Position numbers and translations under genes: made by a program. Source: Brassica napus (Eukaryota; Streptophyta; Magnoliopsida; Brassicales; Brassicaceae). From it: DNA of 64,000 nt. Positions 4,342 to 20,033 of the stretch are shown one piece after another. Below the pieces are notes generated by a model. It saw only the letters and a program-made list of their open reading frames with translations, ran no database searches and was not told the DNA's origin. Position 1 is the stretch's first letter, and each line of letters begins with the position of its first letter. The stretch lies in NCBI RefSeq assembly GCF_020379485.1, contig NC_063438.1, forward strand, positions 3,906,001 through 3,970,000, in the 5' to 3' direction.

Positions 4342-5231
4342 CTTGTAGCATTCTTAGTTTTATAATTATTTTTCTCTTAAAAAAAGTTAAAATAAATTTC
4401 ATATTAAGGTGAAATTATATAATAACAGACAAGTTTCTAATGTATGATGGTAAGTTGGCTTATTGTTTTACTGGCTTTATAAAATATCAAATACGAGAAT
4501 ATAACTTTTCAAATACGAATGATATATTTTGTAATTTATTACTAATATCGACCCTCGTTCAATATACACCAATAAATTTAATACTTTAATTTTTCTTATC
4601 TACCATCGTACTGCAGAATAATGATTTTGTTCTGTCTAGCATTAATATATGATATTCACATTCAAATTTGAAAATTTATAGACTAATAAACCATTTTTCC
4701 TATTTTGTAAGAATGAAACTTTCCGTTTGGATATATTTAAACTAGTAGTTTGTAGTTTATCTTTAGTAGTACTATGTAATTTTAAACACACGAGTTAAAA
4801 TATAGAGAAATTACCTAAAATATATTCAATAATAGTTGATTTCAAATTAGTTTATCAAATAACAAGTTCTGTAACATTCAATTTTAAAATAATTTTTACA
4901 ACTCATGTTTTAATAACTGTAGATTTTTCATTTTAGTACAAATTGTCTCAAACTCATAGTTGAATACACTATATCTATTTATTTACTTAGTGTAATATTA
5001 TTCTCTCTATTTTTTTACTTAGTGTAATATTGGTCAGACAATAATTTTAAATGTTCTCTGTGTAGCTATGGATAGCCAGATAGAATACGCCAAAGTAAGT
5101 TAATTTAGTTTCATTCATGTGTAATCATATTTACTTATGAAGATGATTTCTATTTACTGTATTAAATATGTCGGTGCCTAGAGGGCTACATAATTTATGC
5201 ATTTTTACTTTGTTTGAAAACTTGAGAATAA
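4342..5231. other. AT-rich intergenic region, nothing recognised
   Basis: No ORF of note, no repeats with clear boundaries and no RNA gene. It ends at the left terminal inverted repeat of the Harbinger element. Confidence 0.55.
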
Positions 5232-5838
5232 GAGCATCCGCATTAGCGGATTAATAGGAGTTCATGGGCTGGGGTTTATAGACCCGGAAAATAAAAAGAA
5301 ATGTTTTATTGAGTTTAATTGGGTGATCCGTCTCTTTGGAGTGAGCCCGTATGATACGGGTTCAAGCCACGCGTCGGACAGGCATTGGCCGCGTGTTTTC
5401 GCGTCGAGAGGGAGAAAAATAGGGTTACGCGTGAGATGATTCATTTTCTCTCCTTTTTTCGAAAGCTAGGGTTTCTCTCTGTGGGAGGCGATATCTCGTG
5501 CGACGCGACAGCCGGAGAATTTCTCGATTGAATCGACGTCGGAGACTCTCGTAAACGATCTGAGGTGAGTATCAACTACTTTTACGGTTTCATAGAATCT
5601 ATTTGGGGTCGAAAGGGTTATCGGTTAATTGAAAATCGATTTGGGGGTTTTGATGTAGGGTTCAAAATCGATATGGGGGTTTTGATTTAGGGTTAATAAT
5701 CGCCATGCGGGTTCAATTTAGGGTTCGTTTCTTGAGGATTTGAAATCGATTTGGGGGTTTCTACTTAGGGTTCCAAATCGAGTTTGGGGTCACGGTTTAC
5801 CGTTTATTTTGTTATAATCTTTGCTTTTTCTGGTACAG

Positions 5839-6453
5839 ATGGATCCCGCAGAAGAGAGAAGAGAGACAAAGAGGCAGTCGGAGTTGATCAACATGCAAGG
5901 ATACGTGGCAGATTCAGAATACGGGATTCCGACGAGGTGTCCCTGCGGAGGGAGAATCATTGACGAAGTTCGGGGGAAGGACGACTACGACACTCTTCCT
6001 GGGAAGCGGTTCTTCACCTGCAAAAACTACACGGTAAGCGCTTCTTCTCAATTTAATTATTTCCATTTAATTGAGTTTCGAACCAGATTCTCACATGTGT
6101 TTTGTGGTTAACAAGGCTGATGGGTTTCATTACCGTCAGCCTTGGGTGATTGGTGTCCAGGAGCATATCGAACGTCTCACAAAGCGTCTTGAGGAGGTTG
6201 AGTTGGTGATCAACGGACTCCCGGAGGTCAATTATCAGATTGAGAGGCTGGAGGTAATGTGACTTCCATTTTTTTTGTTTAAAATTTGTAATATTTTCCT
6301 TAATTTTCTATTAACGGACTAACAATTTGTGATTGTTTTTTCCATGTCCAGGCAGAGGTTAAAGCCCTCAATCGGGAGGTTGATAACCTCACTGGGCAGG
6401 TTTATAACCTCTCAGTGCAGGTCGCGCACTTGGAGAAGCTATGCTTCGACTGA
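5839..6453 (+). CDS. GRF-type zinc-finger, coiled-coil protein inside Harbinger element
   Basis: Three coding exons, 5839-6033, 6116-6253 and 6352-6453, all phase 0, give 144 aa. The ATG follows an AG acceptor (5838), and a good donor at 5565 suggests a 5' UTR intron 5565-5838. Residues about 25-65 form a GRF zinc finger (GIPTRCPCGG ... RFFTCKNY: Cys-x-Cys, then an aromatic-rich stretch and a third Cys). After it come a QPWV motif and a long heptad-rich helix to the C-terminus (LTKRLEEVE, REVDNL, QVAHLEKL), a likely coiled coil. GRF fingers bind single-stranded DNA or RNA in other proteins. Many short plant proteins of this form (At4g04775-like, from memory) are uncharacterised. It lies between the left terminal repeat and the Myb ORF, so it is either a third transposon gene or a captured host gene. 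Expression is unproven. Confidence 0.75.
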
Positions 6454-6823
6454 AAAAAGGTAACACTCAAGCTTAATCAATTGGAGTGCTAGTTATAGTT
6501 GCATTTGAACTGAACTATGTGTACTAGGTTGAGATGAATTTGAAATGAATGTTGATGAATGGTTGAGTGTGAAGCCCGTGTACTTGTGTTTTGGTTGGTT
6601 GTGTAATCAATTCGACTGCTAGGTAGAGTTGAGTTAGAACTGATTTGATGTTTATTGAATACAGTCTGTGTAGTAGTTGTAGTTTTAAAAACTTTAATCA
6701 ATGTTTGGTGGTTAGACCCACTTTAATTTTTTGTCCTTTCAAGGTCAAAACTAGTTTAAAATCATAGGCAATCTTCTTCTGAAAACACAAACCAAAGTTT
6801 AAACCCATTTATCTAAAATCTAA

Positions 6824-7588
6824 ATGGATCCTTTTAACTATAACTCTCCCGGGTTGGTTAACCTACTAGTCTCTCAGAGCAGTCAACCCATAGACTTAGG
6901 GTGTTCTGAGGTTCCTAAAGCGGCGTCAAAGCGTAAGTGGACAACCAAAGAAGACGTTGTCTTGATCAGTGCTTGGTTGAACACCAGCAAAGATCCAATT
7001 GTGAGTAACGAGCAGAAGGCAGGCACGTTTTGGAAGCGCATAGTGGAGTATGTCAATGCTAGTCCTCTGCTCATTGGCTCCATTCCTAGGGAGTGGAGTC
7101 AATGTAAGCAGCGGTGGGGAAGGGTTAATGAGCAGGTCTGCAAGTTTGTTGGAAGCCATGAAGCCGCGGTGAAGGAGCAAGCGAGTGGGCAAAATGAGAA
7201 TGATGTCATGAAGGCTGCCCATGACATCTTCTTTAACGACTATCATGTCAAGTTCAGTATGGAGCATTGTTGGAGGGAGCTTAGGTTTGATCAAAAATGG
7301 AGATCACATTCATTGTCGAAAGATGGTGCAAAGGAGAAAAGGAAGGAACCGGCTGAGGAGGTTCCTGCGGACCAAGATGTTAGGCCTCCTGGCGTTAAGG
7401 CAAGCAAAGCAGCCAAACGCAAGAAGCACACCAATGAAGCAGCTTATGATCAGATAGAGAGCATATTAGCTGCCAAAAATACTATATCTAAACAGAAAAT
7501 CCTTGATCGCTTGCTTGCAAAATCTGAAGCTACACTTTCTCCACAAGAAGTGTCTCTTAAAAATAAACTCATTTGTGAAATGCTTTGA
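6824..7588 (+). CDS. Harbinger Myb/SANT-like DNA-binding protein (ORF1)
   Basis: Single exon, 254 aa. Residues about 35-105 form a Myb/SANT (trihelix-like) domain with the expected tryptophans (KRKWTTKED, ISAWLN, FWKRI, EWSQCKQRW). After it come a NAM-associated-type region, a basic tract rich in Lys (about 165-205, likely nuclear signal) and a short helical C-terminus. In PIF/Harbinger transposons this protein binds the ends and carries the transposase to the nucleus. The same domain is fused to the C-terminus of some Arabidopsis GST theta proteins, so database hits may be misnamed GSTT3. It sits 1 kb upstream of the transposase on the same strand. No frameshift or stop is present. Confidence 0.85.
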   Translation: MDPFNYNSPGLVNLLVSQSSQPIDLGCSEVPKAASKRKWTTKEDVVLISAWLNTSKDPIVSNEQKAGTFWKRIVEYVNASPLLIGSIPREWSQCKQRWGRVNEQVCKFVGSHEAAVKEQASGQNENDVMKAAHDIFFNDYHVKFSMEHCWRELRFDQKWRSHSLSKDGAKEKRKEPAEEVPADQDVRPPGVKASKAAKRKKHTNEAAYDQIESILAAKNTISKQKILDRLLAKSEATLSPQEVSLKNKLICEML

Positions 7589-8592
7589 TAGGGTCAGTAG
7601 GTTAATTGCATTTCATATGAACTTTTTAAGTTAATTTTTTTGTTGGATAATGCTTGATATAAACTTGATTGCATTTGATATTTGCTGAAAATGTTTTGGG
7701 TTTGCAGGTTTGCAGGTCACGGGTTGCGGTAGGTGGATGCGTGCGTGTGGACGTGTTGTCAGTAGGTCTCAGCTTCTTTTGGTATCAGGTCACGGCTTTA
7801 CTGGGTGTATGTACCCACAGGTTCTGTTTTGAACTCACGGGTGTATGTACCCACGGGTTCTATTTTGTACTCACGGGTGTATGTACCCGATCACATTGTA
7901 AAATATGTGTCTTTATATAATCTATGTTTTTCACTTATGGAACTGCAACAACTCTTTCACTATAAATTGTTTCTTCACTCTAGCATTGATTCTTCACTTT
8001 TGATCTATGTTTCTGCTCAACTATCACCACTATAGTATTGATTCTTCACTCTAGCATTGATTCTTCACTTTTGCATTGATTTCTCTCAACTATCACCACC
8101 CTTTCATTCACTTCTCAACCATCACCACGATTTTTCTCAACCATCAGCACTCGCAAGTATCACCACACCTTCATACACTCCTCAACCATCAGCACTTGAA
8201 TTGATTCTCCACACTTGAATTGGTTAGTAATGTTTTATAAGTTTTTCAAAAAAGTTGGAAATAAGTGATGGAAAATATATACTAAATTTAAACTAAATTT
8301 AAACTAATAAGTTAAATGTTAATAAGTTTATAAATGTAATGTACTAATAAGTTAAATGTTATTAAGTTTATAAAAAATTTAAGTTATGGAAATTTAAACT
8401 AATATTTTTAAATTTAAGAAAAAAAATGATAAAAGACAACACTACATACCATATATACAAGGAAATAAATGTAATGTACTTGTGTATGATATATTTTAAT
8501 AAGTTTATAAAAAATTTAAGTTATGGAAATTTAAACTAATAATGTACTTATAAATCCCTTTTGCCCTTTATAGGAAGTAAATTGCTTCAACA
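7589..8592. other. Spacer between Harbinger ORF1 and transposase; short repeats
   Basis: Non-coding DNA within the transposon. It contains a 36-bp tandem repeat (7804-7890), then a run of related short phrases (ATTGATTCTTCACT and CTCAACCATCACCAC variants, about 7980-8215) and duplicated AT-rich phrases (about 8280-8540). It may hold the 3' end of ORF1 and the promoter or 5' UTR of the transposase. Confidence 0.6.
7804..7890. repeat. 36-bp tandem repeat, about 2.4 copies
   Basis: Units begin at 7804, 7840 and 7876, each with GGTGTATGTACCC followed by a variable GGTTCT(G/A)TTTTG(A/T)ACTCACG. The period of exactly 36 is a multiple of three, but no reading frame here looks like a gene. Confidence 0.8.
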
Positions 8593-9861
8593 ATGTCTTC
8601 CTCATCAAGTGATGAAGTAGATGAGTATTTAGAAGAAATGGTCGACGAAGTTGTTGATAATTTCATCGATTCAGTAGTTGATGGTCAAGCTAACAACCCG
8701 AAGAGACGAGCTTATATCGAAAGAAATCGGGAACGCGGACACAGTCAACTATTGACCGACTATTTCAACGAAAATCCCACATACCCACCGGAAATGTTTA
8801 GGAGGCGTTTTCGAATGAACAAGTCATTGTTCCTTCGCATTGTCGATCGCCTAAGTACTGAAGTGCCATACTTTCAGCAAAGAAAAAATGCTCACGGAAG
8901 GTTCGGGCTATCTGCACTTCAAAAGTGTACGGCAGCTATACGTATGCTGGCATACGGTCAATCGGGAGATACATATGACGAGTATCTCCGACTTGGTGAA
9001 AGTACGGCACGTTTATGTTTGGAAAATTTCACTGCTGGGATAATACAATTGTTTGGACCGGAGTATTTACGAAGACCTAATGAGGATGATCTTCAACGAT
9101 TACTCGATATTGGAGAGGTACGGGGGTTCCCAGGGATGATTGGCAGCATCGACTGTATGCACTGGGAGTGGAAAAACTGTCCAACGGCTTGGAAAGGTCA
9201 GTACACACGTGGTTCAGGAAAGCCGACAATTGTCTTAGAAGCTGTTGCATCACAAGATCTTTGGATATGGCACGCTTTTTTCGGATTACCAGGTACCCTC
9301 AACGATATCAATGTTCTTGATCGGTCACCAGTTTTTGATGATATTTTACAAGGTCGAGCACCAAAAGTGAAGTTCAAGGTCAACAACCACACTTATCGTA
9401 TGGCTTACTACCTTACTGACGGAATTTATCCAAATTGGTCAACATTTATCCAATCCATCCCACTCCCTCAAGGTCCTAAAGCAGAACTATTTGCCGAACG
9501 TCAAGAATCCACCAGAAAAGATGTCGAACGGGCTTTTGGAGTATTGCAATCAAGGTTCGCAATAGTTAAAAACCCAGCTCTACTATGGGACAAGGAAAAG
9601 ATAGGAATGATTATGAGAAGTTGTGTCATATTGCACAATATGATAGTAGAGAACGAACGAGACGGATATACCCAAATTGATACATCTGAGTTCGAGTCAG
9701 GAGAGTCAAGCAGAAGTTCCAAGGTGAAAACGAGAACAAGTTTTAATATCGGTAATATGTTAGGCGTTCGCAATGAAGTTCGGGATTCAGAGAAACATCA
9801 TCTTTTGAAAGCGGATTTAGTTGAAAATGTATGGAAAAAGTTTGGTAATGTAGATGAATAA
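8593..9861 (+). CDS. PIF/Harbinger transposase, DDE_Tnp_4 (HARBI1-like)
   Basis: Single exon, 422 aa, uninterrupted. The N-terminus is acidic (1-31). A helical region at about 105-145 resembles the HTH part of HARBI1 proteins, followed by the RNase H-like DDE domain. The catalytic triad is visible: Asp187 in IGSIDCMHW, Asp276 in YYLTDGIYP and Glu312 in DVERAFGVLQSRF. The conserved GLPGTLNDINVLDRSP block and the C-terminal CVILHNMIVEN helix are present. The family cuts and joins the terminal repeats and makes 3-bp target duplications. It lies downstream of the Myb ORF, as in other plant Harbinger elements. Domesticated relatives (ALP1/HARBI1) lack adjacent terminal repeats; here they are present, so a transposon gene is the better call. 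Confidence 0.93.
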   Translation: MSSSSSDEVDEYLEEMVDEVVDNFIDSVVDGQANNPKRRAYIERNRERGHSQLLTDYFNENPTYPPEMFRRRFRMNKSLFLRIVDRLSTEVPYFQQRKNAHGRFGLSALQKCTAAIRMLAYGQSGDTYDEYLRLGESTARLCLENFTAGIIQLFGPEYLRRPNEDDLQRLLDIGEVRGFPGMIGSIDCMHWEWKNCPTAWKGQYTRGSGKPTIVLEAVASQDLWIWHAFFGLPGTLNDINVLDRSPVFDDILQGRAPKVKFKVNNHTYRMAYYLTDGIYPNWSTFIQSIPLPQGPKAELFAERQESTRKDVERAFGVLQSRFAIVKNPALLWDKEKIGMIMRSCVILHNMIVENERDGYTQIDTSEFESGESSRSSKVKTRTSFNIGNMLGVRNEVRDSEKHHLLKADLVENVWKKFGNVDE

Positions 9862-10335
9862 TCTTTCTATGTTCATTAATATTCTTAATGTATTTGAATA
9901 TTTTTAATGTATTGAATAAAAAGTTTTCAAATATTTTTTTTTTAAAAAAATATTATTTTATTCCTATGAACCCCTTCTTCAGGTTCACTAATGCAGACAC
10001 ACAAACGATAGAAGTTCATCACTATTCATGGTCCCACCAAAAAATATTAAAAAAATCCTATGAACCCCAAGAGGGGGTTCATTGATGCGGATGCTCAAGG
10101 CACCGAAAATGCCACATGTAAAAATAGTATATGTGGCCACAAGACGTGTGAGCTAACTGTATATGGGTCTGTGTAAATACATATGACCCAAAAAAAGGTG
10201 TAGATCAACATATTTCATGAAACATCGTTATCAGTTTTAATTTACGTCGGGACGTCATGGGCCTAGAAATTCTGACAATTTATTAATGCTAACCGATATT
10301 GAGTTGAAAGTTTGTAAAACTCAACAATGATCTGA

Positions 10336-10624
10336 GAGCATGAGCATCAGTGAACCCCCTTTGGGGTTCACCTTCTTAATTTTTTATTATTAAAGTTTTT
10401 CTTTTTTTCATTTTGATTTTTTTTAAAAAAAAAAAAAAAAAAAAATTGACCAATCGCGGGCCGCCACGTGTCGTGGGGCCCGCGCTACAGTGATGAACTT
10501 TAGAAGAGAGGGTATCATGCAGAAGAGGTGAGAAGGGGTGAGTTCATCACTTTTGTTTTTTTTAATATTTTTTTTTCTCGTAAAACGTGTGAACCTCCCT
10601 CTTGAACCTCTAATGCTCTTGCTC
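10336..10624. mobile_element. Harbinger-type MITE with TGA target duplication
   Basis: 289 bp. The ends are GAGCATGAGCAT and its near inverse complement ATGCTCTTGCTC, flanked by TGA on both sides (10333-10335 and 10625-10627). The core has a GC-rich block with a CACGTG G-box (10465-10470). It is the same family as the MITE at 19763-20033, in opposite orientation. It contains an A run at about 10425-10445 and has no ORF. Confidence 0.8.
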
Positions 10625-19762: not shown

Positions 19763-20033
19763 GAGCACCCCCATTAATGAAATTATGGGGGGTTTACACA
19801 CATTCCAAAAAAAAAAAATATTAAAATAAGGAATAGTGATGAACCTGTCTCTCTTCACCCCTTCTCACTGAACCTGGTTCATCACTGTAACGCGGGTCCC
19901 ATGGCACGTGGCGGCCCGCGACTGGTCCGAAAAAATAATTTTTTTTTTTTAAAACAAAAATCAACCCAAAAAAAAAAAAATAAAAAAAATGCTTTGTGAA
20001 CCCCTTTCATGGGGTTCACTAATGGGGATGCTC
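19763..20033. mobile_element. Harbinger-type MITE with TTA target duplication
   Basis: 271 bp. The ends are GAGCACCCCCATTA and its near inverse complement TAATGGGGATGCTC, flanked by TTA on both sides (19760-19762 and 20034-20036), the standard PIF/Harbinger target. The GC-rich core with CACGTG (19905-19910) is the reverse complement of the core of the MITE at 10336. Its right-terminal 30 bp closely resemble the right end of the autonomous element at 10096. No ORF. Confidence 0.9.

Follow-up and report, generated by a model that had tools for sequence, protein, structure and literature searches.

We analysed a 64-kb stretch of the Brassica napus genome (contig NC_063438.1, positions 3,906,001 to 3,970,000; "the window" below means this whole stretch of 64,000 nucleotides), in which positions 5232–10096 of the forward strand hold a mobile element of the PIF/Harbinger superfamily of DNA transposons. 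Between its perfect 12-bp inverted ends lie three genes on one strand, in the order GRF-type zinc-finger gene, Myb gene and transposase gene, and the whole unit recurs at other loci.

Structure and mobility of the element

The left terminal inverted repeat (TIR; 5232–5243, forward strand, sequence GAGCATCCGCAT) is matched at 12 of 12 bp by the right one (10085–10096, reverse strand). These are the only two exact copies of GAGCATCCGCAT in the window, where up to two mismatches give seven matches versus 2.05 expected, and the inverted ends claimed in a first-pass annotation of this stretch were thus borne out. The target-site duplication (TSD) of this copy is imperfect, with TAA at 5229–5231 on the left and AAG at 10097–10099 on the right. 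The Myb/SANT protein of 254 aa is encoded by the first open reading frame (ORF1; 6824–7588, forward strand), whose match to PF13837 (E 8.7e-6, 26.5 bits) falls just under the cut-off of 27, as a NAM-associated domain match likewise falls under its own. ORF2 (8593–9861, forward strand) encodes a DDE transposase of 422 aa that matches PF04827 (E 4.2e-111) and PF13359 (E 5.4e-10), with D187, D276 and E312 where the first reading had placed them. Both frames are open, as had been claimed.

The GRF-type gene occupies the space between the left end and the Myb ORF, upstream of the latter, on the forward strand. Its leader intron spans 5565–5838 (donor GT in 44 and acceptor AG in 45 of 46 aligned rows, four of which repeat loci already included, while the row of the element L055 is misregistered). 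Coding exon 1 (5839–6033) provides residues 1–65 with the putative zinc ligands C34, C36 and C61; exon 2 (6116–6253) provides residues 66–111, including H70, and the start of the coiled coil; exon 3 (6352–6453) contains the stop codon and ends the coding sequence. The junctions are GT-AG and in phase 0, in agreement with the clean three-exon gene and leader intron described at first pass, and the product of 144 aa is listed by NCBI as gene LOC111200803. A fold model predicted a helix of 65 residues (79–143).

The putative assignment of this product to the GRF type rests on relatives and profiles rather than on a Pfam match of its own. PF06839, the Pfam GRF family, was matched at E up to 10 by 16 of 35 relatives, all below threshold (best E 0.046); a window-type profile found the canonical GRF L060 among 1069 reading frames (E 2.1e-5); and hhalign aligned the window type with the second group of GRF genes described below (L061 type) at a probability of 96.4 in one pairwise comparison. 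Counting against the assignment, PF06839 was not one of the 25 families that best matched the full-length window protein, residues 1–79 gave no match to it even at E up to 10, and the fold model was weak in the finger region. The claim of a GRF finger therefore stands through relatives and profiles but not through a Pfam match of the window protein. Compared with the GRF fingers of NEIL3, APE2 and TOP3A, the window type lacks the fourth Cys, has an invariant His beside that place (C-C-C-H), and belongs to a small free-standing protein with a coiled coil.

The whole 4865-bp unit was found at nine near-full-length places, including the window, at 90–100% identity and with the GRF stretch covered in each. 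The flanks of L001–L008 were compared and all differed except those of the pairs L005/L008 and L006/L007. Clean 3-bp TSDs were present at L003 (TTA), L004 (TTA), L005/L008 (TAA, one place) and L006/L007 (TCA/TGA, one place). The imperfect TSD of the window copy would suit two adjacent insertions whose outer repeats merely resemble those of one element, but several other loci hold the same 4.9-kb unit with both ends, flanked there by clean 3-bp duplications; this refutes that reading for all practical purposes and shows the terminal repeats to belong to one unit. The first-pass description of a complete element thus holds for both ends and the three genes, with the correction that the TSD of this copy is imperfect.

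Three further observations concern these copies. L005/L008 and L006/L007 have common flanks, and in each pair one member lies on a small contig; they represent assembly redundancy or segmental duplication rather than separate insertions, so that copy counts are inflated. L002 has TAA on either side, and its last three bases (CTC) are gone. The window element and L002 differ in their flanks and show a synonymous divergence (dS) of only 0.004–0.006 in Myb and transposase, pointing to a probable recent transposition.

Short TIRs at both ends, a Harbinger-type DDE transposase and a Myb/SANT second gene are PIF/Harbinger traits present here, and the 3-bp TSD, typically TWA, is present in the family. 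The trait of two genes only is not found, given the third gene; we take it as a usual rather than a defining trait because an excerpt of PMC2836001 ascribes two genes to "virtually all" characterised coding elements. We regard the window element with good confidence as an autonomous-looking, Pong-like PIF/Harbinger transposon from a family with three genes, not two. It resembles rice Ping/Pong in its short TIRs, 3-bp TSD, Myb/SANT ORF1 and DDE transposase, and differs from them in having a third gene, spliced and coding for a GRF coiled-coil protein, ahead of ORF1.

The GRF-type gene as part of the mobile unit

We compared the coordinates of three lists of matches: 199 GRF exon-1 places (the union of two lists, with later-exon rows dropped), 149 Myb ORFs and 99 transposases; the linked counts are lower bounds for the matches listed. 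A same-strand GRF exon preceded 112 of the 149 Myb ORFs (0.94–1.29 kb, median 1.05 kb) and 70 of the 99 transposases (median 2.81 kb, range 1.3–7.4 kb), with no GRF–Myb or GRF–transposase pair in any other arrangement. Listed partners accompanied 134 of the 199 GRF places. L039, a transposase without a listed GRF, was found once read to have a three-exon GRF gene. The GRF gene is thus no private capture of the window copy, and in all likelihood it has long been the third gene of the element.

The 31 GRF copies that were aligned are the best-scoring ones rather than a random sample. Their four coding splice sites were kept in 30, 31, 31 and 28 copies, 23 copies had no internal stop, and length differences in the coiled coil occurred in steps of 7 or 14 residues. 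L027 carries an exonic 16-base insertion, and the frames of L031 and L037 continue beyond the usual stop. Eighteen copies exceed a dS of 0.2 from the window copy; among them the nonsynonymous-to-synonymous ratio (omega) was 0.17–0.35 in 16 and 0.47 and 0.51 in two; relative to L039 it was 0.25 for GRF, 0.20 for Myb and 0.26 for transposase. Median divergence over the 18 copies was 0.28–0.29 in introns, 0.20 at third codon positions and 0.086 at positions 1+2, the introns exceeding the last by more than threefold. This pattern indicates purifying selection on the GRF gene. Pulling the other way, eight of the 31 copies contain a stop, the GRF frame is interrupted by a stop in L003 and L008, whose Myb and transposase are open, and close copies, which differ by few changes, give omega values up to about 1.1; such copies may reflect weaker constraint or supply in trans.

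The comparison of the three genes proposed at first pass was made on 15 elements, 11 of which had been chosen for a GRF seen there (ten fetched so, plus L039); Myb and transposase were open in all, and the aligned GRF exons were stop-free in 13. Protein distances correlated between GRF and Myb (Mantel r 0.89), GRF and transposase (0.76) and Myb and transposase (0.77), and window-type GRF protein divergence reached 43%. Sequence comparison thus shows that the GRF-type zinc-finger/coiled-coil gene has long belonged to the mobile unit and is under selection there: its place and strand are fixed, as is its exon structure within the window-type family, and it diverges along with Myb and transposase.

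Two accounts place the gene with the host instead. Transposons do capture genes, and the genome is rich in GRF genes (1053 candidates at first look), which would suit the alternative raised in the first-pass annotation, a host GRF gene recently captured as a passenger. Against it stand the span of protein divergence within the window-type family, the diverged GRF of the second group, purifying selection and the coding introns retained in window-type copies; moreover, no host orthologue of the window-type GRF was identified, although none was sought systematically. We favour an element gene over recent capture because the slot is the same in most listed members of the family and in the second group, selection is purifying and the pattern of divergence is common with Myb. 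Recent capture is accordingly very improbable, being ruled out by linkage, divergence span and the second group; an ancient capture is possible.

Such an ancient captured gene might be kept for the benefit of the host, its transposon linkage being incidental. The NCBI listing of the window protein as a gene would agree with this, as would the 65 of 199 window-type GRF places without a listed partner among the matches listed, which also count against the element-gene reading. The one such place that was read, L042, has Myb and transposase, both decayed; this joint decay in an old copy and the fixed slot over many insertions suit an element gene, and loci that are nearly identical but differently flanked (L001, L002) are unlike a host gene. 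We therefore consider a host-serving gene improbable.

A second Harbinger group and elements without GRF

Genome searches also yielded 149 rows for PF06839 and 150 for PF04827. In four cases a GRF preceded a same-strand transposase domain by 2.1–2.9 kb, whereas uniform placement would give 0.45 pairs, counting every arrangement. Two of these loci, L061 and L062, were read and again show the order GRF, Myb, transposase, with Myb 56–57% and transposase 70–73% identical to those of the window. The L061 GRF exceeds the Pfam cut-off (30.2 versus 25.9 bits), while its DUF730 match is below its own. Among the best 99 matches to the L061 transposase, which include a few window-type copies, an L061-type GRF was present upstream in 44 and a GRF of any list in 50, with none in another arrangement; from the opposite side, 46 of 150 listed L061-type GRFs had a listed transposase. 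In the same PF06839 search, L058 (C485:46.44 Mb) and L059 (C234:10.39 Mb) each had two GRF matches close together, which we presume may be host topoisomerase 3 genes.

The best 120 of 249 relatives of the L061 type come from Brassica, Raphanus, Sinapis and Eruca, and some are named At4g04775-like or At1g43920-like. These Brassicaceae proteins (GRF, often with DUF730) are relatives of the gene in the L061/L062 slot and resemble the window type in having a GRF followed by a coiled coil. They differ from it in their canonical finger, whose fourth site reads C-H, and in the form of the gene, as a single open frame covers the GRF, the coiled coil and the hydrophobic tail in L061/L062.

Four of the 257 proteins fetched (P0159, P0164, P0192 and P0239, from four Brassica species) are gene models that continue from the GRF to the first part of the Harbinger Myb, so the adjacency holds in other species too. 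Some Brassicaceae genes listed as uncharacterised thus lie inside GRF-bearing Harbinger transposons. P0239, a Brassica oleracea gene model, bears the NCBI name glutathione S-transferase T2-like, while the stretch that was read consists of a GRF finger fused to a Harbinger Myb; it is probably a misannotated transposon.

Six elements without a listed GRF were read from the PF04827 list. One, L055, contained a GRF of 39% identity with exon borders at the window-type places; the other five (L040, L041, L053, L054 and L056) had no GRF by either profile within ~6 kb upstream, which speaks against a gene common to all. On whether the GRF is always in this slot, as the first-pass annotation had asked, the gene occupies it in most listed members of the family and recurs there in the second group, but five of the six elements sampled for want of a listed GRF lack it. 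In an unrooted Myb tree, 18 GRF-bearing rows were split from three GRF-less rows with support of 100/100; the unrooted transposase tree (18 versus five) needed one change, with weak support (73/54). The simplest history is one gain of GRF, or one loss on the other side. GRF-less relatives paired with a host orthologue, named at first pass as the contrary case, apply by half at most: GRF-less relatives exist, but those read form a separate group, and no host orthologue was identified, although none was sought systematically.

Myb and transposase of L051 (G000:C79:29931200-29936400) fall into different groups, the former with the window element (96/94) and the latter with L039/L046/L048 (99/98), and gene modules appear to have been swapped between elements.

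Two short elements accompany the large one in the window. A 289-bp element at 10336–10624, 240 bp away, has ends (GAGCATGAGCAT and GAGCAAGAGCAT) related to those of the large element and TGA on both sides, and is probably a non-autonomous Harbinger relative. A 271-bp element at 19763–20033 has the ends GAGCACCCCCAT and GAGCATCCCCAT and TTA on both sides.

Possible role of the third protein and its significance

The functional background comes from excerpts of two papers. The ORF1 product of zebrafish Harbinger3 is an end-binding protein that also interacts with the transposase, and Myb and DDE mutations in Ping strongly reduce or abolish excision (excerpt of PMC2836001); the GRF finger of NEIL3 binds single-stranded and forked DNA (excerpt of PMC9266487). 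Because this kind of finger binds single-stranded DNA in NEIL3 and the 65-residue helix suits self-association, we tentatively favour a role as an accessory single-strand nucleic-acid binder. The GRF protein would oligomerise through its coiled coil, and its finger would grip the element's single-stranded nucleic acid, such as ends exposed in excision or donor-site repair. It would thereby assist the Myb protein, which binds the ends, and the transposase, which cuts, and the element would supply itself with a host-like single-strand binder.

A role against host silencing, or in tuning expression via element transcripts or chromatin-linked RNA, outside the cutting reaction, is nearly as likely, and we hold it as a real but somewhat less favoured possibility. 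It agrees with the occurrence of a GRF finger in the rRNA methyltransferase ZCCHC4, as given in an excerpted source, with the anchor-like tail of the second group, and with the fact that rice Ping/Pong, which need two proteins, manage without a third (excerpt of PMC2836001); RNA binding by the finger is predicted at most. The same two-protein requirement weighs against a third transposition factor, as do several features of the second group. A strongly hydrophobic C-terminal stretch was present in 82 of 120 L061-type relatives versus 0 of 137 window-type ones, and calls for caution on the accessory-binder role, since a membrane-anchored form suits a role in a cutting complex poorly. The L061/L062 GRF has neither of the two window-type introns, so that, with the tail, two separate acquisitions of GRF are possible, and 104 of the 150 L061-type GRFs had no listed transposase.

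On balance, it is a tentative proposal that a large Brassicaceae Harbinger clade has long run on three proteins, the third being a GRF-finger coiled-coil protein with a tail anchor in one branch and a soluble C-C-C-H form in another, which would act as a single-strand factor in transposition or against silencing; much of the At4g04775-like/At1g43920-like family would then be a transposon gene. We hold it no more firmly because of the L061-type GRFs without a listed transposase and the missing window-type introns.

Coding capacity in the PHIS superfamily is described as varying by group, with a YqaJ gene in ISL2EU and one gene in Spy (excerpt of PMC4482050, whose main text has no occurrence of "GRF" or "zinc finger"). 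A third gene kept by a whole Harbinger clade was not found in our searches of open-access papers; the superfamily itself is known.

Harbinger is treated as a two-protein superfamily, and a clade with a selected third gene departs from that. GRF-bearing and GRF-less elements in one genome offer a natural comparison for the role of the extra protein. Finally, the location of part of two multicopy, uncharacterised Brassicaceae gene families inside Harbinger elements has consequences for the number of genes counted, for pan-genome statistics and for studies of expression in rapeseed and cabbage.

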